Assembly (NCBI GenBank): GCA_016928995.1
Contig: JAFGJS010000048.1
Span: forward strand, 1-10,473
Direction of reading: 5' to 3'
DNA length: 10,473 bases
From: Candidatus Sumerlaeota bacterium
GTDB taxonomy: Bacteria; Sumerlaeota; Sumerlaeia; JAFGJS01
How positions within the stretch are numbered: the stretch's first letter is position 1; every line of letters begins with the position of its first letter. Positions 1 to 10,473 of the stretch are shown in pieces. Position numbers and translations under genes: made by a program. The notes under the pieces were generated by a model that was given only the letters and a program-made list of their open reading frames with translations, made no database searches and had not been told where the DNA came from.

Positions 1-273
1 ATTTTCACCAAAAGCGGCTTATTTTTCCATATTTTGCTCCATATTTCATTGAAAATCGGTTCACAAGCGGCATAAGTAGCAGATCCACACCAAAAGGGGA
101 AGAACCAAAAAGATAATGTGGTCCAAGAAGAGCCGCTATTATTTTATGGATAGATAGTATTTATCGATAATGATAAATACTATTTTCATTGCATGTGTGT
201 AGTTATATTTTCCATGAATAGCTACTAATCAAGGACGCTTATATGCGGAGGCGAAAGTGAATGTCGTTTTTTG
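1..273. other. AT-rich gene-free leader
   Basis: I see no convincing gene here. The stretch is markedly richer in A and T than the coding part of the window, and reading frames on both strands are short and broken. Its one clear structure is the palindrome at 154-183, listed separately. The short motif AGCGGC recurs near 14 and 67, with its complement GCCGCT near 132, but this is too short to interpret. An upstream gene may end just outside the window; nothing here shows its tail. Confidence 0.5.
154..183. repeat. Perfect 12-bp inverted repeat, AT-rich
   Basis: ATAGTATTTATC (154-165) and its exact reverse complement GATAAATACTAT (172-183) flank a six-base centre, GATAAT. The arms are almost entirely A and T, so as RNA this would be a weak hairpin. 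The T-run after it is short (TTTTC), so a classical terminator is unlikely. A dimeric-protein binding site, or a recombination or attachment palindrome, is possible. It lies about 570 bases before the first gene, too far to be its obvious operator. Confidence 0.6.
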
Positions 274-440
274 GAAGTGTCGCAACCCAGGGCGGCTGTG
301 CCACATTCAAGGGATACGACAAAAACTTTTGAGAACTGTGATATCGCAAGACAAAGCGGGAGCGACCGTCCCGGTCGCGAACTTTCGGGGTTGAGGACAG
401 CCCCTCCCACTTCAAGGGCTGCGCCCCGCCACTTGATATC
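274..440. repeat. Composite intergenic repeat with hairpins
   Basis: This non-coding stretch is a patchwork of short G/C-rich blocks. The clearest hairpin is GCGACCG (362-368), loop TCC, CGGTCGC (372-378), a perfect seven-base-pair stem. Around it lie blocks such as GGGCGGCTGTGCCAC (near 287) and GGGCTGCGCCCC (near 416). These resemble dispersed intergenic repeats I recall from PVC-type genomes. Reading frames through it on both strands are low in complexity and overlap each other, so I do not call a gene. Confidence 0.4.
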
Positions 441-450
441 CACTCCACAA

Positions 451-558
451 TCGAAATCGGGATCGGGATCGGGATCGGGATCGAAATCGCTATTAAAAAA
501 ACGACGACACCGATACCGATTTCGATCCCGATGGCGATAGCGATTGCGATTGCGATTC
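451..558. repeat. Hexanucleotide array folded as inverted repeat
   Basis: The left half is seven six-base units in register (451-492): TCGAAA, four copies of TCGGGA, TCGAAA, TCGCTA. After an A-rich centre, the right half is eight units of the complementary type (511-558): CGATAC, CGATTT, CGATCC, CGATGG, CGATAG, CGATTG twice, CGATTC. The halves pair: ATCGGGATCGAAATCG (474-489) is the exact reverse complement of CGATTTCGATCCCGAT (517-532), with a 27-base loop. On the minus strand a frame through it reads as an Asp-Pro repeat and then Arg/Asn-rich residues. I take that peptide to be an artefact of six-base periodicity. Confidence 0.75.
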
Positions 559-619
559 TGAAATGGCAATTGTGACATTAGAAAGCTCCTGTTTTTTCCA
601 TGGCGCACGCGGTCAATGT

Positions 620-648
620 TTGACAAACGTCACGAATCTTTCTAAAGT
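620..648 (+). promoter_or_regulatory. Candidate sigma70 promoter for the response regulator
   Basis: A perfect -35 hexamer TTGACA (620-625) is followed after 17 bases by TAAAGT (643-648), which matches the -10 consensus at four of six positions. Transcription would begin near 655 and leave a leader of about 70 bases before the gene at 727. Spacing and -35 are ideal and the -10 is weak. This is a sequence match only. Confidence 0.4.
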
Positions 649-686
649 GATCCTCCATAAAGCATAATACATTCGGCTTTCCATAA

Positions 687-703
687 ACGGGAGCTACTCC
701 CGT
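687..703 (+). promoter_or_regulatory. Leader hairpin before the response regulator
   Basis: ACGGGAG (687-693), loop CTA, CTCCCGT (697-703) forms a perfect seven-base-pair G/C-rich stem in the presumed 5' untranslated leader. It ends 23 bases before the start codon and 11 bases before the ribosome-binding sequence AAGGA (715-719). It could stabilise the leader or affect translation. No T-run follows, so it is not an intrinsic terminator. I recognise no known riboswitch consensus around it. Confidence 0.4.
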
Positions 704-726
704 GAAGAAGCCCCAAGGACTACAAG

Positions 727-1671
727 ATGGCAAAACTGCGCATTATGGTTGTGGATGACGATCCCGATTCCCAACTGATCTTGAGCAAGATTCTTCAGCC
801 GCACTACGACGTTCATTTGGCCGATAACGGGCTGGACGCGCTGGAGAAACTGGAGAGCCTCGATCCGGACATTGTGCTGGCCGACGTGGCCATGCCGGTG
901 ATGAACGGCTGGGAATTCGTGGAGCGGCTGCGCAAACAGCCGCAGTTCCAGAAAATCCCGGTCGTTTTTCTCTCGGCGATGGTGCAGAAAAACCACATCA
1001 AAACCGGCTACGACAGCGGCGCCGATTTGTACCTGACCAAGCCCATCGAGCCGGACCGCCTGCTGCGGATGCTGGAGATGCAGGTGCGCGAACGCAACCT
1101 GGTGCCCAAGGAGGCGCTGAACGCCACGGTGGACTCGGGCAAGTATGTGATTGATGAAGATGAGCCGGAGCCGCCGACCGAGCCGCTCGAGCCGATGCAC
1201 CGGGCGCGCGTGCTGATCGTGGACGACGATCAGGATCTGGCCATGATCATGAAGATGGAGCTTTCCCGTTTCTACGAAGTCGTCGTCTCGCACGACGGCC
1301 TGAGCGCAATGGACACGGCGCTGAAATGGAAGCCGGACATCTTCGTGATCGACTGGATGATGCCCAAGGTTTCGGGATACCAGATGGTGGAAATCCTGCG
1401 CCGCACGCAGAATTTCCATCATTCGCCAATCATCTTCATCTCGGCGAAGAGCTCGCCGCGCGACAAGATGATGGTCGAACGGCTCGACGTGGCGGCGTAT
1501 CTGCCCAAGCCATTCCTGCCGTCAGACTTGACCATGGTGATCGATAAGGAAATCAACAAGCCCGGTTTTCAAATCAATCCGAACCGTCCGCCGTTGCCGG
1601 ATGAACTCCGCACGGGACGGCAGGAGAACGCGGAAGAGCCGGGGAATGACAGTGTGAAATGGCAGGATTAG
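727..1671 (+). CDS. Tandem two-receiver response regulator, no output domain
   Basis: This 314-residue protein consists of two CheY-like receiver domains and a short tail. Receiver 1 (about 3-120) has the acidic cluster D10-D12, phosphoacceptor D53 (in LADVAMPVMNG), S83 and K105 (TKP). Receiver 2 (about 160-275) has D166-D168, phosphoacceptor D209 (in VIDWMMPKVSG), S239 and K261 (PKP). Both sites therefore look able to take phosphate. An acidic, proline-rich linker (about 136-158) joins them. The last 40 residues are polar and hydrophilic. No DNA-binding, GGDEF, HD-GYP or kinase domain is present, so it probably acts by phosphorelay or protein contact in the cytoplasm; the partner kinase is not in this window. 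The start is well supported: AAGGA lies seven bases upstream and the first strand (KLRIMVVDDD) begins at once. The next gene follows 54 bases on. Function beyond phosphotransfer signalling is unknown. Confidence 0.92.
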   Translation: MAKLRIMVVDDDPDSQLILSKILQPHYDVHLADNGLDALEKLESLDPDIVLADVAMPVMNGWEFVERLRKQPQFQKIPVVFLSAMVQKNHIKTGYDSGADLYLTKPIEPDRLLRMLEMQVRERNLVPKEALNATVDSGKYVIDEDEPEPPTEPLEPMHRARVLIVDDDQDLAMIMKMELSRFYEVVVSHDGLSAMDTALKWKPDIFVIDWMMPKVSGYQMVEILRRTQNFHHSPIIFISAKSSPRDKMMVERLDVAAYLPKPFLPSDLTMVIDKEINKPGFQINPNRPPLPDELRTGRQENAEEPGNDSVKWQD

Positions 1672-1690
1672 GCCGCGCGATGGCCTGAGC

Positions 1691-1719
1691 TTCTGCAAAA
1701 AGAAATTGGACGCTATAAA
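1691..1719 (+). promoter_or_regulatory. Possible promoter giving a leaderless SRAP mRNA
   Basis: TATAAA (1714-1719) sits 6 bases before the ATG at 1726, with a poor -35 candidate TTCTGC (1691-1696) at 17-base spacing. If used, transcription would begin at or next to the start codon, giving a leaderless transcript. In keeping with this, no purine-rich ribosome-binding sequence lies within 15 bases upstream of the ATG. Read-through from the regulator gene is the alternative. Confidence 0.28.
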
Positions 1720-1725
1720 CATCTT

Positions 1726-2418
1726 ATGTGTGGACGATACACTCAGACTGCGCCGTTGACGTTGGACAAACTGCAACGGCGCTTTGTCATTGATTGGATC
1801 CATCCCGACACGCCGCCAGGGCCGCGTTACAACATCGCCCCGACGCAAATCGCGCCGGTCCTGATGCAAGACGGCCAGCGGCGCATCGCGCTGCCCATGC
1901 GCTGGGGGCTGGCGCCCAGCTGGGCGCAAGACGAGAAGATCGGCGCGCGCATGATCAACGCGCGCGTGGAAACCATCGCGGAAAAACCAAGTTTCCGTCA
2001 GGCGTTCTTCCAGCGGCGATGCATGGCGCTCGCCGACGGTTTTTACGAATGGGTGCAGGATTCCGGCGGCGCCAAGCAGCCCTATCGCTTCGTGCTCAAG
2101 TCGCGCGAACCTTTCGGCTTCGCCGGTCTCTGGGAGCGATGGCAGCCGCCCGGACGGACTCCGTTGCTCACGTTCACCATTATCACGCGCCCGGCTAATC
2201 AATTCATGAAGCCGTACCATCCACGCATGCCGGTGATCCTGCGCCGTCAGGACGAAGCGGCGTGGCTGGATCCCGAGCTGCGCGACAAAGACGCACTGAT
2301 GCAGCTCTTGCTCCCGCGCAAATCGCGCATGATGGAGTGTCACCCCGTGGCCGATGTCGTCAACTCCCCTCATCACGACACCCCTCAATGCGTCGAACAG
2401 CAATTGGAACTGTTTTAA
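1726..2418 (+). CDS. SRAP-family abasic-site processing protein (YedK/HMCES-like)
   Basis: Proteins of this family (E. coli YedK, human HMCES) crosslink covalently to abasic sites in single-stranded DNA through the N-terminal cysteine, shielding them from cleavage. All expected features are visible in the 230 residues: the N-terminus MCGRYTQ exposes Cys2 after Met removal; PRYNIAPTQ (33-41) is the family signature; N78 lies in MINARVE, E108 in DGFYEW and H165 in YHPRMPVIL, the expected active-site set. The length matches bacterial members, and the C-terminus carries the usual VNSP...C.E pattern. The start is fixed by the obligatory Met-Cys. It follows the response regulator on the same strand by 54 bases and may be co-transcribed or have its own promoter at 1691-1719. 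No SOS box is evident. Family assignment is very secure; the role in this organism is inferred. The gene ends the first cluster, and the next 626 bases are non-coding. Confidence 0.95.
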   Translation: MCGRYTQTAPLTLDKLQRRFVIDWIHPDTPPGPRYNIAPTQIAPVLMQDGQRRIALPMRWGLAPSWAQDEKIGARMINARVETIAEKPSFRQAFFQRRCMALADGFYEWVQDSGGAKQPYRFVLKSREPFGFAGLWERWQPPGRTPLLTFTIITRPANQFMKPYHPRMPVILRRQDEAAWLDPELRDKDALMQLLLPRKSRMMECHPVADVVNSPHHDTPQCVEQQLELF

Positions 2419-2454
2419 CCGAACTTCCAATGTGGATTCTCCCCACAACCTAAA

Positions 2455-2910
2455 GGAACCTCTAATCATTCACCACAGAGACTCGAAGACACAAAGAACC
2501 GAATTGGGATCAACAGTAAATACAATGATTGAAATCTATGCGTGCTCCATGACTTCGTGTGAAAATTGTAATGATTTTGAGACGGCCTAAATTCAAAAAC
2601 CAAAACAAATTAGAAATTGAAACACGCCGCACATTGATCCCGGAACATGGCTGATCTCTCTGCGCCACCGCGCCTCTGCGGGAAAAAATTCGCAGAGCAG
2701 ATCTGATGCAAGATTCATATTGTCAGTCTATTCGCGGATGACTGCGGCGAATTTCTTATTTTTTATGATGGCAGACAAGGATTAAGGCGCCAGTAATATT
2801 AAATCTCACGCAAAGTCACAGAGCATGCAAAGATTGGACAATTGTGTTCGAAGCACATTAATAGATGCTCTGTGTCCTCGGTGTACTCTGTGGTGAATTT
2901 TAAAGGTTCC
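2455..2910. repeat. MITE-like segment bounded by inverted repeats
   Basis: This fills most of the 626-base gap 2419-3044, where I see no gene. The left end (2455-2480) reads GGAACCT..., ending ATTCACCACAGAG; the right end (2886-2910) is its reverse complement, CTCTGTGGTGAAT...AGGTTCC, with 13 and 7 exact bases at the two blocks. Weaker similarity continues inward over about 20 bases (GAAGACACAAAGA against GAGGACACAGAGC). Internal hairpins are CACAGAGCAT (2817-2826) with ATGCTCTGTG (2865-2874), and CTCTGCG (2674-2680) with CGCAGAG (2691-2697). No transposase frame fits inside, and I see no clear target duplication. It could be a non-autonomous element or a cluster of individually dispersed repeats of the 'CACAGAG' family. 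Confidence 0.5.
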
Positions 2911-3044
2911 ATTATTTAACGCTTATCTCGACCTTCCCTAAAAATATCGAACACCAAATTTGTGTTGCAATTCCAGTGTCCTGACGCAAAGTGGAGCCTC
3001 TTACGATATGCGCCGCGCGACGCGGCGGCAAAGGCGAAGACTCG

Positions 3045-4112
3045 ATGAAACGCATGATTGTCACAGGCTCCAGCGGACTGATCGGCTCGGCCGTGTGCGA
3101 ATATTTTCATGGCCAGGGCTGGGAGATCCACGGCATTGACAACAATCAGCGCGCCGTGTTTTTCGGACCGGAAGGCGACACGCGCTGGAATCAGCATCGG
3201 CTGCAAGAGACGCTGTCGCGCTTCACGCATCATGAACTCGACGTTCGCGACCGCTCCAACGTGCTCGGCGCTGTCGAACAGATCCAGCCGAAGGCCATCG
3301 TGCACGCCGCGGCGCAGCCTAGCCACGACCGGGCGGCGGCGATTCCTTTCGACGATTTCGACACCAACGCCGTGGGCACGCTGAACCTGCTCGAGGCGAC
3401 GCGGCGTTTCGCGCCCGAGGCGCCGTTCGTATTGCTCTCCACGAACAAGGTCTATGGCGACGCTCCGAATCGCATCGCGCTGGAGGAACTCGAAACGCGC
3501 TGGGATTACAACGATCCGGCGTATGAACAAGGCATTCCCGAGTCGCTCTGCATCGACCAGTGCAAGCATTCGCTCTTCGGCGCGAGCAAGTCCGCGGCGG
3601 ACCTGTTGACCCAGGAGTACGGACTGTACTTCGGCATGAAGACCTGCTGTCTGCGCGGCGGATGCCTCACCGGACCGGGCCACTCCGGCGTCGAACTGCA
3701 CGGCTTTCTGAGCTACCTGATCCGCTGCAACCTGGAGCAACGGCCGTATCGCGTGTACGGCTACAAAGGCAAGCAGGTGCGCGACAACATCCACAGTCTG
3801 GACGTGGCGCGATTCATTGACGGCTTCATCCGCGCGCCGCGTTGCGGCGAGGTGTACAACATCGGCGGCGGCAAGGCGAACAGCTGCTCGATCCTGGAGG
3901 CGTTCGAACTCGCGGAGCGCCTGTCGGGCGAGCCGATGCAGTTTGAGTACGACGAACGGAACCGCATCGGCGACCACATTTGCTACTACAGCGATCTGCG
4001 CAAGGCTCGCGCGCATTATCCGGAATGGGACATCACCGTGTCGCTCGAACAAATCTTCGAGCAAATCGCCGCCGCCTGGCGCGTGCGTATGAGAAAAGGG
4101 TCTGGGGTCTAG
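3045..4112 (+). CDS. NAD-dependent sugar-nucleotide epimerase, CDP-paratose/tyvelose 2-epimerase-like
   Basis: An extended short-chain dehydrogenase of 355 residues. The Rossmann motif TGSSGLIG is at 7-14, D32 ends the second strand, and STNKVYGD (132-139), RGGCLTGP (204-211), ELHGFL (217-222) and [13 protein letters not shown] (239-251) follow. The STNKVYGD and KQVRD blocks and the family's closing part are those of CDP-tyvelose/paratose 2-epimerase-like proteins, which act on nucleotide-linked sugars for surface polysaccharide. The usual catalytic Tyr of YxxxK is Phe here (F178-G-A-S-K182). I chose ATG 3045 because the Rossmann strand begins right after it; an in-frame GTG at 2991 would add 18 unlike residues. 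The ribosome-binding site is weak. The last residues (about 349-355, RKGSGV) and the stop TAG are read from a repeat arm (4095-4126), so the native C-terminus may have been changed. It probably works with the glycosyltransferase 258 bases on. The exact substrate is not determinable. Confidence 0.85.
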
Positions 4113-4362
4113 GATCTGGGGTCTGGATTGGAAGGCGTGCTTAAAGCCAGTATAAAAGGTACATAAAAAATTATGATTCTCGCACAGAGATGAAAAGGGG
4201 GGAAATCTATCCCTCGTGTCTTCGTGTCTTTGTGGTGAATTTATAAAGGTTGCTTAAAGTTCATTTTCAGCTGTTGAACATTGATAATGATGAGCCAAAG
4301 ATTCTATTCGCAGCATCAAATATTCCATCACCAGACCCTAGACCCTGAACCCTAGACCCTTT
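4095..4362. mobile_element. 268-bp element with 32-bp heptamer inverted ends
   Basis: The left arm (4095-4126) begins AAAGGGTCTGGGGTCT and continues in seven-base units of type (A/G)GGGTCT, closing in GG. The right arm (4331-4362), read on the other strand, begins AAAGGGTCTAGGGTTC and ends in the same GG. The arms agree at 27 of 32 positions. The outer flanks are GTGCGTATG (4083-4091) and GTGCGCTATG (4363-4372), one base apart in length and otherwise the same, which suggests a target duplication; three bases, AGA, lie between the left copy and the arm. The interior is AT-rich with no gene. The left arm encodes the epimerase stop; the right arm ends 8 bases before the next start codon. It may be a non-autonomous insertion or a folded intergenic repeat; no transposase is seen. 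Confidence 0.5.
4217..4253 (+). repeat. Second copy of the 'GTGGTGAATTT..AAAGGTT' repeat
   Basis: TGTCTTCGTGTCTTTGTGGT and the next 17 bases closely match 2873-2910, the right end of the segment at 2455-2910, in the same orientation. The shared core is TGTGGTGAATTT, then TAAAGGTT after one extra base. It sits inside the heptamer-bounded element at 4095-4362, so two repeat families are nested here. Confidence 0.6.
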
Positions 4363-4369
4363 GTGCGCT

Positions 4370-5500
4370 ATGCTTAAATTGGCTTACATCATTGAAAGCC
4401 TCTCCCCGCTGCTGACCGGCACGACGTCATCGGCGCAGGGATTGACTTTGGCGCTGAAACGGCGCGGCGTGGATCTGCGCATCGTGGCGCGCTGCCCCGA
4501 TCGCGAGGCCGCAGCGGTTGAGCGGCGCTTCGAAGGGCTGGCGCGCCTGGTGAAAGATTCGGAAAGCCGCGCAACATTCGCGCAGGCGATTGACAATGCC
4601 GTGGCATGGTGCGATCTGGCGCAGATCTCCGGCGTCTGGGATCCGTCCACGCGCATGGCCGCGGCGTCCGTGCGGCGGCATGGCAAGCCGCACATCTACA
4701 GCGTCCGCGGCATGCTCGATCCCCGGCGGCTGCGCGACAAGTGGTGGAAGAAATGGCCGTACGCCGTGCTGCTGGGCCGCCGCACGTACGCGCGAGCATC
4801 GGCGGTTCATGCGCTCACGCCCGATGAGGAAGGTTATCTGCGGCAATGGCGCTATCATGGACCGGTGTTCATCACGCCGAACGGCGTGGAACTGCCGCAA
4901 CGCGAAGCCGGTCCGGAGCCGTTTTACGACGCTTGCCCGCAGGCGCGCGGCAAACGCGTGCTGCTCTATCTCTCGCGCATCGACCGGCAAAAGGGCGGCG
5001 AGGAGCTGATTCGCGCGTTCGGGCAACTCGCGGAGCGCTATCCCGATTGGCTGCTGGTGATGGCTGGCAACACGCAACAGCCGAAATTCCTGCAGCGCGT
5101 GAAAGAACTGGTTCAGCGTGAAGGTTGGAACGGCCGGATTGTGTTCCCGGGATTTCTCTACGAAGACGCGCGATGGTCGGCGTTGGAAACCGCCGAGATA
5201 TTTACGCTGCCGTCGTACAGCGAGGGTTTCAGCAACGCGATCCTGGAAGCGCTGGCCTGGAATTGCGCCTGCTTGATCACGCCGCATTGCAGTTTCCCGG
5301 ATGTCGTTGAATGCGGCGCGGGGCTGTCGGTCGAACCGGCGGTGGAAACACTAACTGGCGCGCTGGAGGAATTGCTTTCATCGCCCGCTGAAACGCTCGC
5401 CGGCATGGCCCGCAAAGGCCGCGCGCTTGTCGAAGCGCGCTACACCTGGGATGCCGTGGCGGCACAGATGATCGAGCAATACCGGAAAATTCTGACATGA
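4370..5500 (+). CDS. GT4-family glycosyltransferase
   Basis: A retaining, GT-B-fold glycosyltransferase of 376 residues that would move a sugar from a nucleotide donor to a growing glycan at the inner face of the membrane. The N-terminal half begins MLKLAYIIESLSP with the glycine-rich turn LLTGTTSSA (14-22). The C-terminal half has ITPNGVE (168-174), LYLSRIDRQKGGEELIRAF (199-217), MAGN (231-234), VFPGFL (258-263) and the EX7E donor-site motif E285-G-F-S-N-A-I-L-E293. There is no signal peptide or membrane segment. I start at ATG 4370; a TTG nine bases upstream would add only three residues and lies within a repeat arm. No ribosome-binding sequence precedes it, because the bases just upstream are the right arm of the element at 4095-4362 (CCCTAGACCC). 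It follows the epimerase gene, so a surface polysaccharide role is likely. Donor and acceptor sugars are unknown. Confidence 0.92.
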   Translation: MLKLAYIIESLSPLLTGTTSSAQGLTLALKRRGVDLRIVARCPDREAAAVERRFEGLARLVKDSESRATFAQAIDNAVAWCDLAQISGVWDPSTRMAAASVRRHGKPHIYSVRGMLDPRRLRDKWWKKWPYAVLLGRRTYARASAVHALTPDEEGYLRQWRYHGPVFITPNGVELPQREAGPEPFYDACPQARGKRVLLYLSRIDRQKGGEELIRAFGQLAERYPDWLLVMAGNTQQPKFLQRVKELVQREGWNGRIVFPGFLYEDARWSALETAEIFTLPSYSEGFSNAILEALAWNCACLITPHCSFPDVVECGAGLSVEPAVETLTGALEELLSSPAETLAGMARKGRALVEARYTWDAVAAQMIEQYRKILT

Positions 5501-5501
5501 G

Positions 5502-5539
5502 AGAATCGCTGATTTGAGCGAGAGGCCAGCGGCGATTCT
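5502..5539 (+). other. Inverted repeat after the glycosyltransferase stop
   Basis: AGAATCGC (5502-5509) and GCGATTCT (5532-5539) are exact reverse complements with a 22-base loop, beginning two bases after the stop codon. No T-run follows, so an intrinsic terminator is not supported. It may still end or protect the transcript, or be part of the repeat cluster that follows. Confidence 0.3.
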
Positions 5540-5565
5540 ATGTTGCACAAGGCGGATTTCAACAC

Positions 5566-5673
5566 GCGCTTTTTGGACTGCGGCGGCCATGCCGCCGCCT
5601 TGGCTGCGAGGCTGGAGCGAATAAAGATCCGCTCTTCAAGGCGCAAGCATGGCTTGCGCACTCCGAAAAATGC
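5566..5673. repeat. REP-like hairpin cluster between convergent genes
   Basis: This 108-bp element separates the glycosyltransferase and hemL, which point at each other. Its ends are imperfect inverted copies: GCGCTTTTTGGACTGCGGC (5566-5584) against the reverse complement of TGCGCACTCCGAAAAATGC (5655-5673). Inside are three stems: GCGGCGGC-CAT-GCCGCCGC (5580-5598), GAGCG (5615-5619) with CGCTC (5630-5634), and GCGCAAGC-ATG-GCTTGCGC (5641-5659). The two strong stems each have eight pairs and a three-base CAT or ATG loop. The 'TTTTTGGACTGCGGCGG' style is one I recall as a dispersed repeat in Verrucomicrobiota-like genomes. It may act as a two-way transcript end. Confidence 0.6.
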
Positions 5674-5688
5674 ATGGCGTGAAATCTT

Positions 5689-6975
5689 CTACAGTTCCTT
5701 CATTGTCGCGCGGGCGGCGTCGAGGGTGGCGCTGATTTCCTGTTCGCCGTGACATACGCTGATGAAACCCGCCTCAAAGGGCGACGGCGCAAGGTAAACG
5801 CCGCGCTCCAGCATCTTCCAGAAATACTTGCGAAAACGAACGGCGTCGGCCTTTTTCGCATCGGCGTAGTTACGCACTTCGCCGCTGGTGAAATAGGCGC
5901 CGAACATCGAACCGGCGCGATAAACCTTCAATGGAATGTTCGCGGCTTGCGCAGCATCCTGCAAACCTTCCACGAGTGCGGCGGCCGCGCTGTTCAGCTT
6001 TTCATAAACCGCCGGATCGCGCAGTTGCTCCAGCGCGGCGATCCCGGCGGCCATCGCCAGCGGATTGCCCGAAAGCGTGCCGGCCTGATACACCGGACCT
6101 TCGGGCGCAAGCTGAGCCATGATTCCGGCCTTGCCGCCGAACGCCGCCGCCGGCAGTCCGCCGCCCAGCACTTTGCCCAGACACGTCAGGTCCGGCTCGA
6201 TGCCATAGGCTTGCTGCGCGCCGCCGGGACTGACGCGAAAACCGGTCATCACTTCGTCCAGAATCAGCAGCGCGCCATGCCGTGTGCACAGCTCGCGCAG
6301 AGCGGGCAGAAAATCGTCATCCGGCAGCACGCAACCGATATTGCCCGCCACAGGTTCGACGATGACGGCGGCGACCTGACCGTCATTGGCTTCGAACAAC
6401 CGGCGCACGGCCTCCGCATCGTTGTACGGCGCGGTCAGCGTGTCGTTCGCCGTGCCGGGCGTCACGCCGGGCGTGCCGGGTATGCCCAGCGTGGCCACGC
6501 CCGATCCGGCTTCAACCAGAAAACTGTCCGCATGACCGTGATAATTGCCTTCGAACTTGATGATCTTGTCGCGCTGCGCATAGCCGCGCGCCAGCCGCAC
6601 GGCGCTCATCGTGGCCTCCGAACCGCTGCTGACGAAGCGCATTTTCTGCATGGAGGGAAAGAATTCCTGCACCAGACCGGCCAGGCAGAATTCGAGCGCC
6701 GTGGGCGCGCCAAAGCTCGTCCCCTTTACGGCGGTCTCCTGCACAGCGGCCACGACCTTGGGATTGGCGTGGCCAAGGATCATCGGCCCCCAGCTCAACA
6801 CATAGTCGATGTACCGGTTCCCGTCCGCGTCGGTCAGATACGCCCCATCCGCCGACTCAATGAACAGCGGATTCCCCTCGACCGACTTAAACGCCCGCAC
6901 CGGGCTGTTCACTCCACCGACTAAAATATCACGCGATTGGGCGAAGAGCTGTCCGGATTTGGTATGGCTCGTCAT
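5689..6975 (-). CDS. hemL: Glutamate-1-semialdehyde 2,1-aminomutase
   Basis: This PLP enzyme converts glutamate-1-semialdehyde to 5-aminolevulinate, the last step of the C5 route to heme and other tetrapyrroles, in the cytoplasm. The 428 residues match the family length end to end: [11 protein letters not shown] (19-29) is the substrate-loop signature, [15 protein letters not shown] (116-130) binds the PLP phosphate, NYHGHAD (144-150) stacks on the ring, [11 protein letters not shown] (237-247) carries the Asp, and K268 in [11 protein letters not shown] (265-275) is the Schiff-base lysine. [16 protein letters not shown] is also present. The start has a good GAGAGG ribosome-binding sequence, which lies in the 16-base gap after the serC stop. 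It is therefore very probably the second gene of a serC-hemL operon. It converges on the glycosyltransferase across a hairpin cluster. Presence of hemL implies glutamyl-tRNA-dependent 5-aminolevulinate synthesis; hemA is not in this window. Confidence 0.97.
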
Positions 6976-6991
6976 GCGTAATCCTCTCGCG

Positions 6992-8077
6992 TCACCCGTT
7001 GGCGGCTTGGAATTCCTGCATGAATTTCGCCAGGGCTTCGACGCCGGCCTTAGGCATGGCGTTATAGATGCTGGCGCGGCAACCGCCGACGCTGCGATGG
7101 CCCTTGAGGTTCTTCAGGCCGGCGGCGTTACTTTCAGCGAGGAACTTCGCAGTCAGCTTGTCGCTGGACAGCGTAAAGACCACGTTCATCTGCGAGCGGT
7201 CGCTCGCCTTCACCGGGCTGTTGTAGAAGCCGCCGCTGCCCTCCACAACGTTGTAAAGCAGCGCGGATTTCTCCTCTGCGGCGGCCTCCATCGCGCTCAG
7301 GCCGCCATTCGCCTTGATCCACTTGAGCACCTTGCCCATGATCCAGATGGAGAACATCGGCGGGGTGTTGTAGAGCGATTGATTGTCCACATGGGGGCCG
7401 TAGCGGAGATACGCGGAAAGGTTCGGATTCAGCCCCTCGACGATGCTTTTGCAGATGAAAACAACGGCGAGTCCGGCCGGGCCGAGGTTCTTTTGCGCAC
7501 CGCCGTAGACCAGGTCGAATTTCTCCCACGGAATCGGACGGCTGAAGTATTCGGACGACATGTCGGCGACCAGCGGCACGCTGACCTCCGGCCAGGCGCT
7601 GAAGCGGATGCCGCCGATAGTCTCGTTCGAGGTGATGTGCAGATAGCGCGTGCCCGGTTCTACTTTGATCTCATCGCTTGCGGGCATGCGGGTGAATTTT
7701 TCGTCCGCGCCGCTCCAGGCCTCGTATACCTCGCCGCAGGGCTTGGCGTCGGCGAAGGCCTTCTTGGCCCAGCTGCCGCTCATCACGTAGCCGGCCTTGG
7801 CGCCGGGCGTCAGCAGATTCAGCGGAATCATGGCGAACTGCAGCGTGGCGCCGCCCTGGATCAACAACGGCTCGAATTCCGCCGGAGCGCCGAAAACCTC
7901 GCGCAGCAGGGCCAGCGCCTCTTGATGCACGGCGTCGTATTCCTTGGCCCGATGGCTCATTTCGATCAGCGACATGCCCGCGCCCTTGAAATCGACGAAT
8001 TCCGCCTGTGCTTCTTCCAGCGCTTCCAGCGGCAACGTGCAAGGCCCCGCGCAAAAATTAAAGACTCGTTGGCTCAT
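6992..8077 (-). CDS. serC: Phosphoserine aminotransferase
   Basis: This PLP enzyme transfers an amino group from glutamate to 3-phosphohydroxypyruvate in serine synthesis; in many bacteria it also serves pyridoxal-phosphate synthesis. The 361 residues equal the usual length. Visible motifs are [12 protein letters not shown] (5-16), [11 protein letters not shown] (37-47), the phosphate-binding GGATLQF (75-81), GSWAKKA (101-107), TSNETIGG (149-156), [11 protein letters not shown] (171-181) with D172, and K196 in [12 protein letters not shown] (191-202), the Schiff-base lysine. The C-terminus has the [14 protein letters not shown] substrate loop. I start at 8077 because MSQRVFNF fits the family and AGGGGA lies nine bases upstream; an in-frame ATG at 8128 would add 17 residues. 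hemL follows after 16 bases, so the two look co-transcribed. The promoter should lie in 8078-8371, but no convincing hexamers are seen there. Confidence 0.97.
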
Positions 8078-8371
8078 GGTTTCCAGTCCCCTTTTCCATT
8101 CAAGAATCCGCTGTTTCCGCGTCGTCAATCCCCTGCGGGAAAACAGCCGGTGATGTTTTTGTATGATTGCGAGGCTCTATACATGAGTCATTTTCCACAA
8201 GGTGTCCATGAAAAATTTGGCGCCGGATACGCCATCCACGAAAACCAGAAAACAACGAGATTGTGGAAATCGGACGGCGAAGCATTCCGATGTTGCCAGA
8301 AGCTTTGCCGGCGCGTTATCGTATGCCCAATCAATTTCGCGCAGCGAGCCGCGCAGCCAGGATGACTGGAC
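8078..8371. other. Divergent intergenic region with a doubtful small ORF
   Basis: This 294-base space must hold the promoters for serC (leftward) and the helical-repeat gene (rightward), but I find no pair of hexamers near consensus on either strand. On + there is a 60-codon frame, ATG 8183 to TGA 8363-8365, beginning MSHFPQGVHEKF, with GAGG about nine bases upstream and its stop six bases before the next start codon. That spacing would suit a translationally coupled leader peptide. The composition (six arginines and four cysteines toward the end) matches no family I know, and the frame runs on open upstream across serC, so chance is the simpler explanation. Confidence 0.25.
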
Positions 8372-10279
8372 ATGACGCATCGGAAAATGACAGCGGGATG
8401 GTGGATCGGCGCGGCCTTGGCGCTGCTCTTGATCGCCCCGGCGCACGGCGACCGGATGGCGCTGAAAAACGGCAACGTGCTGCATGGACTGACGCTGCAA
8501 CAGGAGGACTCGCGGGTTCAGTTTCGCGTGGATGCCAGCGACCTCTGGATTCCGCGCGGCCAAATCGCTTCGCTGGAACTCGATGATGAAGCGACGAACG
8601 CGTTGCTGCGGCTCGAAATCGCCTCGCAGCGCGGCCAGCTGGATGACGCGGCCGTGGAGGCGTTCCAGAGCGCGGCGCAATACTATCAGCCGGAACGGTT
8701 GCAGCGCGCGCTGACAGAGCGCGCAGGGGAACTGGTGGACGGTTTCGAACGCGCGGATGATGCGGCGCGGCAACGTTGGCTGGGACTGATGACGGGATTA
8801 GAGCGCGATCAGCCTGACGATCCGGCCTACGTCTGTCTGCTGGCGCGCCTGTTTGAACGCGCGGAATTGCCTGCGCAGGCACGCAAGACGTATTTACGGC
8901 TGCCGGAGGATTGGCTTGGCCGGCCGGAGCAAACAGAGCAACGCGCGCAAGCGGATGAATTTGCGAGCCGCGATGCGATCCGTACGTCGCGCGAGGAAGA
9001 TTTCACGGCGGCGGCGGAAGATCTGGAACTGCTGACACTGACGGATTCGAAACACACCACCGGTCTTGCGGTGTTCGCGGCGATGGCGGAAGGCCGGGCG
9101 GCGTCGCGCCAGGGAGAGTGGCGCCGGGCGCTGGAACTCTATGAACAACGCATCAGCAAACTGGCGCCGGAACTATGGTATCATCGTTCCCGCGCAACGC
9201 TGCACGGCGCTGAGGCGGCGCTGACCGCCGAAGAACCGGACGCCGCGGCGCAATTCCGGGCGGCGGAGGTCTGGCGCGATTTCGGAGCGCAATGGCGCGA
9301 ACGCGATTCGCTCGATCCGCCGATCGAGACGCTGCTGGAGCGCGCGGAGCATTGGATGGCGCACGGCGAACTGGCCGGCGCGCGCGCGTGCCTCGAGGCT
9401 TGCGACGCGCTCACCACCCGCTCAACCCAACGGCAATGGAAAATGCTGGAATATTACACGCTGGTCAGCGTGGACGCCGGGCGCACGCCGGACGTCCTGC
9501 GCGAACTCGTTCTGCGGATGATGGACGAAAAGCTCTTCGAGCAGGCGCGCGAGGGATGCCTGCGCCTGCGCAACATCGCAGGGCAAGAGGAACTGACAGA
9601 CGCGCTGCTGCGTAAATTAGATCAGGAAGAAGCGCAGTGGCTGTTTCAAACGGCCAAGCAGGAATTCAAATACGGCGCTTATCATCGCACGCTGGATCTG
9701 CTGGCGCACTTCAAACGGCAATTTCCCGATTCCGGCTTGAGCGATCCGGCGGAGCAATTGGAGCGCCAGACTCGCGAGGCCATGATTCAACCGCCGGAGG
9801 GAACGCAACCGGAAAATCCGGGCGACGAGGCCTGGAATGATTTGGAACGGCTATATCTGGCTCGCGGCATGCACGACCGGCTGGATGAAACCGATCCCCG
9901 GCAGCATGACGACATGCCCCTGACCTGGCGCGAAGTGGAAAAAATCCGCGAAAATCCGGAGCGCTACGTGGAACTGCGCAGCGCGCGGCGCAACGACTGG
10001 CAACGGGCGTATCGCGCCGAGCAGCTGTATCTTGAGGCGCGGCGGCTCTGGCGCGAAGGGCATTACAGCGAAGCCTCGCGCGCCGGATTTGAAATCGTGA
10101 ATCAACTCAGCGGCTCGATCTACGCCGAACTCTGGCTAGAATTGCAGGACGCGCTGCATATCGAATGGAAAGTGGAACTGATGCTCGACGGCCAGTCTGA
10201 ACCGTTCGTGCTTCAGACATACCATCTTTCCAGTCAGGAACTGGAACGCGAACTAAAAACAATCAACGACGCCCTGTGA
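8372..10279 (+). CDS. Exported helical-repeat (TPR-like) protein of unknown function
   Basis: I do not recognise a named family for this 635-residue protein. It opens with a classical signal peptide: positive MTHRK, hydrophobic core (about 9-23, GWWIGAALALLLIAP), and a likely cut after A24-H25-G26. Residues 27-70 look like a small beta domain (DRMALKNGNVLHG...WIPRGQIASLEL), a type common as the first domain of exported proteins in PVC-type bacteria as I recall. The rest is almost wholly alpha-helical, with TPR-like units rich in Ala, Leu, Glu and Arg: about 238-262 (GRAASRQGEWRRALELYEQR), 428-455 (KYGAYHRTLDLLAHFKRQFP) and 552-582 (LYLEARRLWREGHYSEASRA). There is no second membrane segment. 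It probably acts in the periplasm as a protein-binding scaffold; no catalytic motif is seen. The start has AGGA ten bases upstream. It diverges from serC and stands alone to the window's end. Confidence 0.85.
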   Translation: MTHRKMTAGWWIGAALALLLIAPAHGDRMALKNGNVLHGLTLQQEDSRVQFRVDASDLWIPRGQIASLELDDEATNALLRLEIASQRGQLDDAAVEAFQSAAQYYQPERLQRALTERAGELVDGFERADDAARQRWLGLMTGLERDQPDDPAYVCLLARLFERAELPAQARKTYLRLPEDWLGRPEQTEQRAQADEFASRDAIRTSREEDFTAAAEDLELLTLTDSKHTTGLAVFAAMAEGRAASRQGEWRRALELYEQRISKLAPELWYHRSRATLHGAEAALTAEEPDAAAQFRAAEVWRDFGAQWRERDSLDPPIETLLERAEHWMAHGELAGARACLEACDALTTRSTQRQWKMLEYYTLVSVDAGRTPDVLRELVLRMMDEKLFEQAREGCLRLRNIAGQEELTDALLRKLDQEEAQWLFQTAKQEFKYGAYHRTLDLLAHFKRQFPDSGLSDPAEQLERQTREAMIQPPEGTQPENPGDEAWNDLERLYLARGMHDRLDETDPRQHDDMPLTWREVEKIRENPERYVELRSARRNDWQRAYRAEQLYLEARRLWREGHYSEASRAGFEIVNQLSGSIYAELWLELQDALHIEWKVELMLDGQSEPFVLQTYHLSSQELERELKTINDAL

Positions 10280-10473
10280 GGCGTAACTCATTTTTTCCGG
10301 CCTGTTACGGCAGGCAACGACTTCAATATTTTTTTCATACGAAGCTTTTTTTCATGCTTTTTACAACTTACAATTTTCCTTGTTTTGGGCGCAACTCTCT
10401 TAAGCTACAGGATGATAATCTCTTTAATCATGATTCCTGATAAGCGCTGAAAGCGCTGAGTATCTCAGCCCAG
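10280..10473. other. AT-rich tail with small hairpins
   Basis: No gene is seen in these 194 bases. GCCTG (10300-10304) pairs with CAGGC (10311-10315) shortly after the stop of the preceding gene. A run of seven T's follows about 15 bases later, too far for a classical terminator, though one may still act here. Near the edge, GCTGAG-TAT-CTCAGC (10455-10469) is a perfect six-pair stem, next to a direct repeat AGCGCT (10443-10448 and 10452-10457). These may begin a repeat or leader that continues beyond the window. Confidence 0.3.

Follow-up and report, generated by a model that had tools for sequence, protein, structure and literature searches.

A probable decayed mobile element with inverted heptamer-array ends between an epimerase and a glycosyltransferase gene of a Candidatus Sumerlaeota bacterium, and its possible relationship to IVP-associated elements

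The stretch of DNA analysed here (10,473 nucleotides, hereafter the window; contig JAFGJS010000048.1, positions 1 to 10,473 of the forward strand, assembly GCA_016928995.1 of a Candidatus Sumerlaeota bacterium) carries, between an NAD-dependent epimerase-like gene and a glycosyltransferase gene, a 268-bp element (4095–4362) whose ends are inverted tandem arrays of the heptamer GGGTCTR. The parts of the element and its immediate neighbours are as follows.

2991–4112, + strand: NAD-dependent epimerase-like gene that runs into the left array, where its final codons (GSGV) and TAG stop are found
4083–4091, + strand: GTGCGTATG, left-hand member of a proposed but unproven target duplication
4095–4126, + strand: left arm, AAA followed by GGGTCTG-GGGTCTA-GGATCTG-GGGTCT and GG; array common to 16 other loci of the genome
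4125–4135, + strand: degenerate left inner tail GGATTGGAAGG, counterpart of the GGTGATGGAGCGGC hairpin tail of the GGGTCTR family
4127–4330, no strand: core, with no open reading frame (ORF) of at least 60 aa and with part of another dispersed repeat at 4203–4242
4318–4332, − strand: right inner tail, GGTGATGGAATATTT when read from the outside in, with GGTGATGGA kept and the hairpin absent
4331–4362, − strand: right arm, AAA followed by GGGTCTA-GGGTTCA-GGGTCTA-GGGTCT and GG; the inverted match of the left arm
4363–4372, + strand: GTGCGCTATG, proposed right copy of the target duplication (unproven), including the glycosyltransferase start codon
4370–5500, + strand: glycosyltransferase gene, starting 7 bp past the right arm

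The two 32-bp arms lie exactly where a preliminary description of this DNA had placed them and are alike, once inverted, at 27 of 32 positions (84%), a match that takes in the outer AAA/TTT; full GGG runs number three in the left arm and four in the right. As RNA, the region has a predicted folding energy of −111 kcal/mol (z = −8.0 relative to dinucleotide-shuffled sequences), and since inverted pairs of the same heptamer arrays also recur in the genome, the arms are beyond chance. The preliminary description had further suggested that, if the flanks are a target duplication, an element had split the two genes and given the epimerase a new C-terminus and stop, and had recommended a search for further genomic copies. 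An inserted element present in several copies and a new epimerase C-terminus are both supported: the genome search returned 17 loci, and while most epimerase homologues stop at query residues 367–371, the window gene continues into the array, from which its final GSGV and TAG derive.

The host genome is a 4.55-Mb draft that is broken at repeats. A DNA search combined with a pattern search, in which inverted or single arrays were counted, identified (GGGTCTR)n arrays at 17 loci including the window, 10 of them with inverted ends on both sides; in 38 further genomes of the class the pattern did not occur. The better-kept ends consist, from the outside in, of 3–5 heptamers, GGTGAT, GGAGCGGCTGCGCCGC and an A-rich run, and include a 5-bp hairpin for which an alignment of 16 ends (one from a single-array locus) gave 92.5% of cells paired, compensatory CG/GC swaps at two pairs in three ends each, and a covariation of 0.353 versus 0.178 when shuffled and at most 0.128 when slid. 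Most both-ended copies have this hairpin on at least one side; the window copy retains the arrays and the right-hand GGTGATGGA, and its hairpin is gone. We consider it likely that the window feature is an old, decayed, ORF-less and non-autonomous copy of a small mobile element with inverted GGGTCTR-array ends, and the mobile class to which it belongs may include the intervening sequences (IVS) of 23S rRNA.

Although the GGGTCTR ends are shared, the sequences that they enclose are unlike, comprising either spacer only or different single genes. Some copies hold only about 100 bp of A-rich spacer, while the copy on contig C104 holds a gene of the S23/IVP four-helix-bundle family (PF05635, E = 3e-35; NCBIfam four helix bundle protein) and contig C37 carries a GGGTCTR-bounded DUF6882 gene plus an ORF assigned to no family; two more unnamed ORFs stand beside single GGGTCTR arrays (C109 and C137). 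The GGGTCTR-bounded or -flanked ORFs other than IVP lie at L211 1248–1946 and 5409–6162, L215 1–637 and L219 4086–4900; one is the DUF6882 gene and three are without clear family, the L219 ORF extending into its array.

Short GGGTCTR copies fold back across their entire length (z about −12.8), and 11 of 12 copies lie between codirectional genes, a weak excess over the 72% baseline. Strong fold-back and siting between codirectional genes are also what would be seen if arrays had been built without transposition and kept by selection on RNA only, the stem serving as an RNase III substrate or slowing decay between the genes of an operon. In Coxiella, RNase III does cut the 23S rRNA IVS, which has inverted ends together with tandem heptamers (PMC4990558). 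However, arms within a copy are no more similar or complementary to each other than arms from different copies (permutation P = 0.59), as fits a terminal repeat common to the family, and the codirectional siting does not clearly exceed its baseline, so that we regard RNA-level selection alone as extremely improbable. Selection for a locus-specific stem was rejected because arms within a copy are not more alike.

With gene calls from a simple codon model, GGGTCTR copies were found to sit within about 15 bp of the upstream stop codon, and in all nine codirectional copies this stop is nearer than the downstream start (median 5 versus 55 bp). A similar siting is known for the GGGAATC and GGGGATT heptamers of Xanthomonas and Nostoc, which prefer four units, lie near stop codons on the sense strand, form about 70 inverted pairs in Xanthomonas, have positions that are conserved between species, and were described as static, with no link to a mobile element or protein family and with their function left open (Rehm 2015, PMC4692102). 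The GGGTCTR arrays share with them a 7-base GGG unit, about four units per array, inverted pairing and location at stop codons, and could likewise be static repeats, possibly forming G-quadruplexes, that were generated close to gene ends by slippage and have a role in termination or mRNA stability, with pairing secondary and nothing mobile. A G-quadruplex motif is possible in both arms of 6/10 GGGTCTR copies and in one arm of three more. We nevertheless think such an origin unlikely, as GGGTCTR copies share a non-repetitive hairpin tail and hold unlike genes between the same ends, and as most other array families (e.g. GTTCTC and AGTCAGA) are without the GGG runs that a G-quadruplex requires; the G-quadruplex was rejected as a general principle for this reason.

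The inner tail GGAGCGGCTGCGCCGC is a GGAG-tagged hairpin that occurs in inverted pairs, as in REPINs, in which an inverted pair of repetitive extragenic palindromic (REP) sequences, each a GGAG tag plus hairpin, is moved by a REP-associated tyrosine transposase (RAYT); the heptamers would then be an outer addition, and a RAYT gene with GGGTCTR or GGAGCGGC ends would be expected. The genome yields nine matches to the Y1 transposase family, yet the eight that were read are flanked by inverted hairpin repeats of other kinds and lack GGGTCTR arrays, leaving no cognate RAYT among them, and the window copy keeps its heptamer arrays without the two tagged hairpins. An origin as a REPIN thus appears very improbable, and RAYT/REPIN was rejected on account of the other ends of the Y1 genes. 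The likeness between the systems lies in the inverted GGAG-tagged hairpin pair inside the arrays, in protein-specific ends and in ORF-less copies beside gene-bearing ones, and the difference in the outer heptamer arrays and in the ends of the Y1 genes. The Y1-type transposase genes at L200–L207 are each enclosed by a separate set of long, inverted, REP/RAYT-like hairpin repeats and offer a parallel example of ends specific to a protein.

Array-bounded elements of the same architecture surround most genes of two protein families in this genome. Its nine PF05635 matches comprise seven recognisable IVP genes and one weaker match, and on inspection six of the seven are flanked by matched, inverted short-tandem arrays whose unit differs from gene to gene, while at the seventh (L229) a single flank carries an array. 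An equivalent inverted-array layout is seen at the eight PF13366 (GxxExxY) genes. For a wider test, the 500 bp preceding a gene were aligned with the reverse-complemented 500 bp that follow it, using the best family matches from this class and a score of at least 18. This score was reached at 22/29 IVP and 29/35 GxxExxY loci, compared with 1/26 glycosyltransferase controls and with 0/29 PIN-domain controls (for the latter, Fisher P = 6e-10 and 1e-12). Flanks paired across loci reached it in only 1.8% (IVP) and 3.8% (GxxExxY) of cases, indicating that the arrays are mostly locus-specific. The array period also differs between the families (Mann–Whitney P = 1e-7), being 7 at 19/25 and 6–8 at 24/25 IVP loci, and 8–10 at 29/31 GxxExxY loci; these P values are optimistic because loci that share a genome or lineage lack full independence. 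As a strict search for perfect arrays overlooked the majority of elements, a scan for inverted matches was used instead. To our knowledge no catalytic site or activity has been described for IVP proteins, although N51, E54 and G55 are invariant in them. The GxxExxY sequences read here, which we take to be PD-(D/E)xK proteins, keep a D...ExK pattern (e.g. FVADIVVHDIIIIELK, from L235 DNA) that is in line with a predicted nuclease. No earlier link of either family to such arrays was found in the literature outside subscription journals.

ORF-less pairs accompany the gene-bearing ones. In 400 kb of large contigs from the window's genome there were several inverted array pairs without an ORF, one of which shares its array with an IVP-bearing element (L316 and L227). 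In 632 kb from other phyla, at loci chosen only for the epimerase, four inverted periodic (heptamer) pairs were detected, all in Verrucomicrobia, and two of them enclose IVP genes. One of these verrucomicrobial IVP elements with heptamer ends (L057 3523–3996) immediately precedes a gene homologous to the window epimerase. The window itself holds copies of an 8-base-type repeat (CACAGAG, GTGTCTTCGTGTCTTTGTGGTGAA) at 2464–2505, 2800–2912 and 4203–4261 that resembles the arrays around GxxExxY genes, the copy at 2800–2912 resembling an inverted pair and one piece sitting within the window element. In addition, an inverted pair of hexamer arrays of the ATCGGG/ATCGAA type, 80% complementary and separated by 19 bp, lies at 440–566 upstream of a response-regulator gene and represents a further array family of the same build as the window element.

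Plasmids provided sites with and without such elements. In a plasmid sample of 14 S23/IVP loci, mainly cyanobacterial, 12 of the 14 genes were flanked by matched inverted arrays, mostly of period 7, at a more lenient threshold of 16 that cross-locus pairs reach in 10% of cases. The elements split gene units such as nrdB/nrdA, cas6/cas4 and cmr2/cmr3, and 7/11, as placed by their matched arms, are no more than 6 bp from a stop codon. CRISPR-Cas operons are split by 3/14 of the elements (L347, L351 and L352; cas6/cas4 twice, cmr2/cmr3 once), and in Pseudanabaena (L352, about 1223–2002) the IVP gene that separates cas6 from cas4 is flanked on either side by arrays of more than 10 GCTAAAA/GCCAAAA units.

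Blast searches with the plasmid regions recovered plasmids that have matching neighbours (91–98% flank identity) and lack the element. At a Trichormus variabilis site the empty sequence AAAAAGTAATTAACAAAT corresponds to AAAAAGTAAT-element-GTAATTAACAAAT, with a 5-bp duplication that includes the stop codon, and at a Nostoc site CAGATTCTAGATTATGC corresponds to CAGATTCTA-element-TTCTAATTATGC, where 5 bp are likewise duplicated at the stop codon; the duplicated sequences at these two sites are GTAAT and TTCTA. A third site has TAATG/TTATG (4/5 match), and at a fourth, in Aulosira, there is no duplication, about 8 bp are lost and the element gives the upstream gene an earlier stop, the pattern also seen at the window. 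Junctions were not definable at sites 2, 3, 7 and 8, which are too diverged or rearranged. On the Nostoc plasmid pNPM1 (L367 250–990) an ORF-less AGTCAGA element, with a duplication of at most 1 bp, lies within an S23/IVP gene that is intact on pNsp_a, and more ORF-less AGTCAGA pairs occur elsewhere on such replicons. The occupied and empty sites thus indicate that both IVP-bearing and ORF-less elements insert. Judged from these sequences, presence and absence probably reflect insertion and not precise loss, because of the duplications and the many empty relatives. Whole elements missing from otherwise matching sites also count against static repeats, and, since such presence and absence requires insertion or precise loss, against selection acting on RNA only.

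At the window, the preliminary description had taken GTGCGTATG and GTGCGCTATG as a possible target duplication. Both sequences are present, with an extra AGA triplet (4092–4094) between GTGCGTATG and the left arm and with the glycosyltransferase ATG (4370–4372) inside GTGCGCTATG, but the duplication remains unproven, since a match of this quality between the flanking 9- and 10-mers is at chance level, being equalled by 9% of random 25-mer pairs from the window and by 4.4% of flank pairs drawn from different copies. At 10 bp the proposed duplication is longer than the 5 bp of the plasmid sites. The same description had held that copies whose flanks never duplicate would speak against this proposal, and no adjacent direct repeat of at least 3 bp was detected in any of the 10 both-ended GGGTCTR copies; duplication is for this reason not used as proof of insertion. 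Conversely, joining the flanks through GTGCGCTATG yields an epimerase ending in ...AAWRVRYA*, typical of the family and overlapping the next ATG, and so a true duplication at the window is possible, though on balance we lean against it.

Several observations weigh against a mobile origin of the window element as set out above. Besides the missing flank duplications and the want of a described IVP activity, the window locus has no empty-site relative, no transposase with matching ends was found (Y1 being the sole transposase family searched), array units differ between elements of one genome, which would be odd for a single enzyme, and the location at stop codons may reflect survival and not targeting. 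If the elements are mobile, a trans-acting protein, possibly IVP or a partner, would recognise the inverted tandem arrays and insert the segment, in some cases duplicating about 5 bp. Landings at stop codons would survive because a replacement stop is provided by the heptamers, in which TAG occurs in shifting frames, and because the start region of the next gene is retained. Once transcribed, the arms would form a long stem, like 23S rRNA IVS, and by analogy with the Coxiella IVS, processing by RNase III may make insertions within operons tolerable.

The window element is best filed as a miniature inverted-repeat transposable element (MITE)-like, non-autonomous member of an IVP-associated, array-bounded class, and not as an IVS, a MITE or a REPIN, because it has no ORF and is not in rRNA, shows no proven target duplication and has no cognate RAYT among the Y1 genes that were read. 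Like MITEs, it is short, has terminal inverted repeats and no ORF of 60 aa, is mostly intergenic and non-autonomous as a family, and is multicopy with common ends (17 loci, 10 both-ended). It differs from them in that the ends are tandem arrays varying by family, that the Y1 search found no parent transposase, and that no adjacent target-site duplication was seen in the 10 GGGTCTR copies, the flank match at the window being within chance.

IVS with an S23/IVP ORF are known from the 23S rRNA of Leptospira and Coxiella. The Coxiella IVS contains an S23 ORF and has three tandem GACAGAT heptamers in its inverted terminal repeat, where RNase III cuts; both functionality and origin of S23-bearing IVS have been called unclear (PMC4990558). 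With this combination of S23 ORF and heptamers, it fits the IVP-associated array-bounded class. IVS and the elements described here share inverted terminal repeats around an S23/IVP gene, given the matched arrays at 22/29 IVP loci of the class and 12/14 on plasmids. They differ in that GGGTCTR elements lie between protein genes, in many copies per genome that are mostly ORF-less. The window element itself has the inverted terminal repeats and a predicted long stem; it has no S23/IVP ORF, which one sister copy (C104) does have, and is not within 23S rRNA. The TAACTGA heptamers of Beggiatoaceae are likewise intergenic arrays, common to distant bacteria and with no link to mobility or a protein (MacGregor 2015, PMC4679880), but they are direct repeats just upstream of starts, with a proposed translational role and one inverted case.

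We tentatively propose, at a confidence that falls a little short of even, that S23/IVP and GxxExxY are the end-recognition or mobility proteins of widespread, tiny, array-ended elements (period 7 and 8–10, respectively), that the 23S IVS are members that landed in rRNA, and that GGGTCTR, and perhaps the Xanthomonas GGGAATC repeats, are ORF-less offspring. IVS and intergenic heptamer repeats are linked here by the same protein family lying between the same kind of array at many sites in unrelated bacteria, where occupied sites can be compared with empty ones, and the S23/IVP and GxxExxY families gain a testable function, with the prediction that the array period follows the protein.
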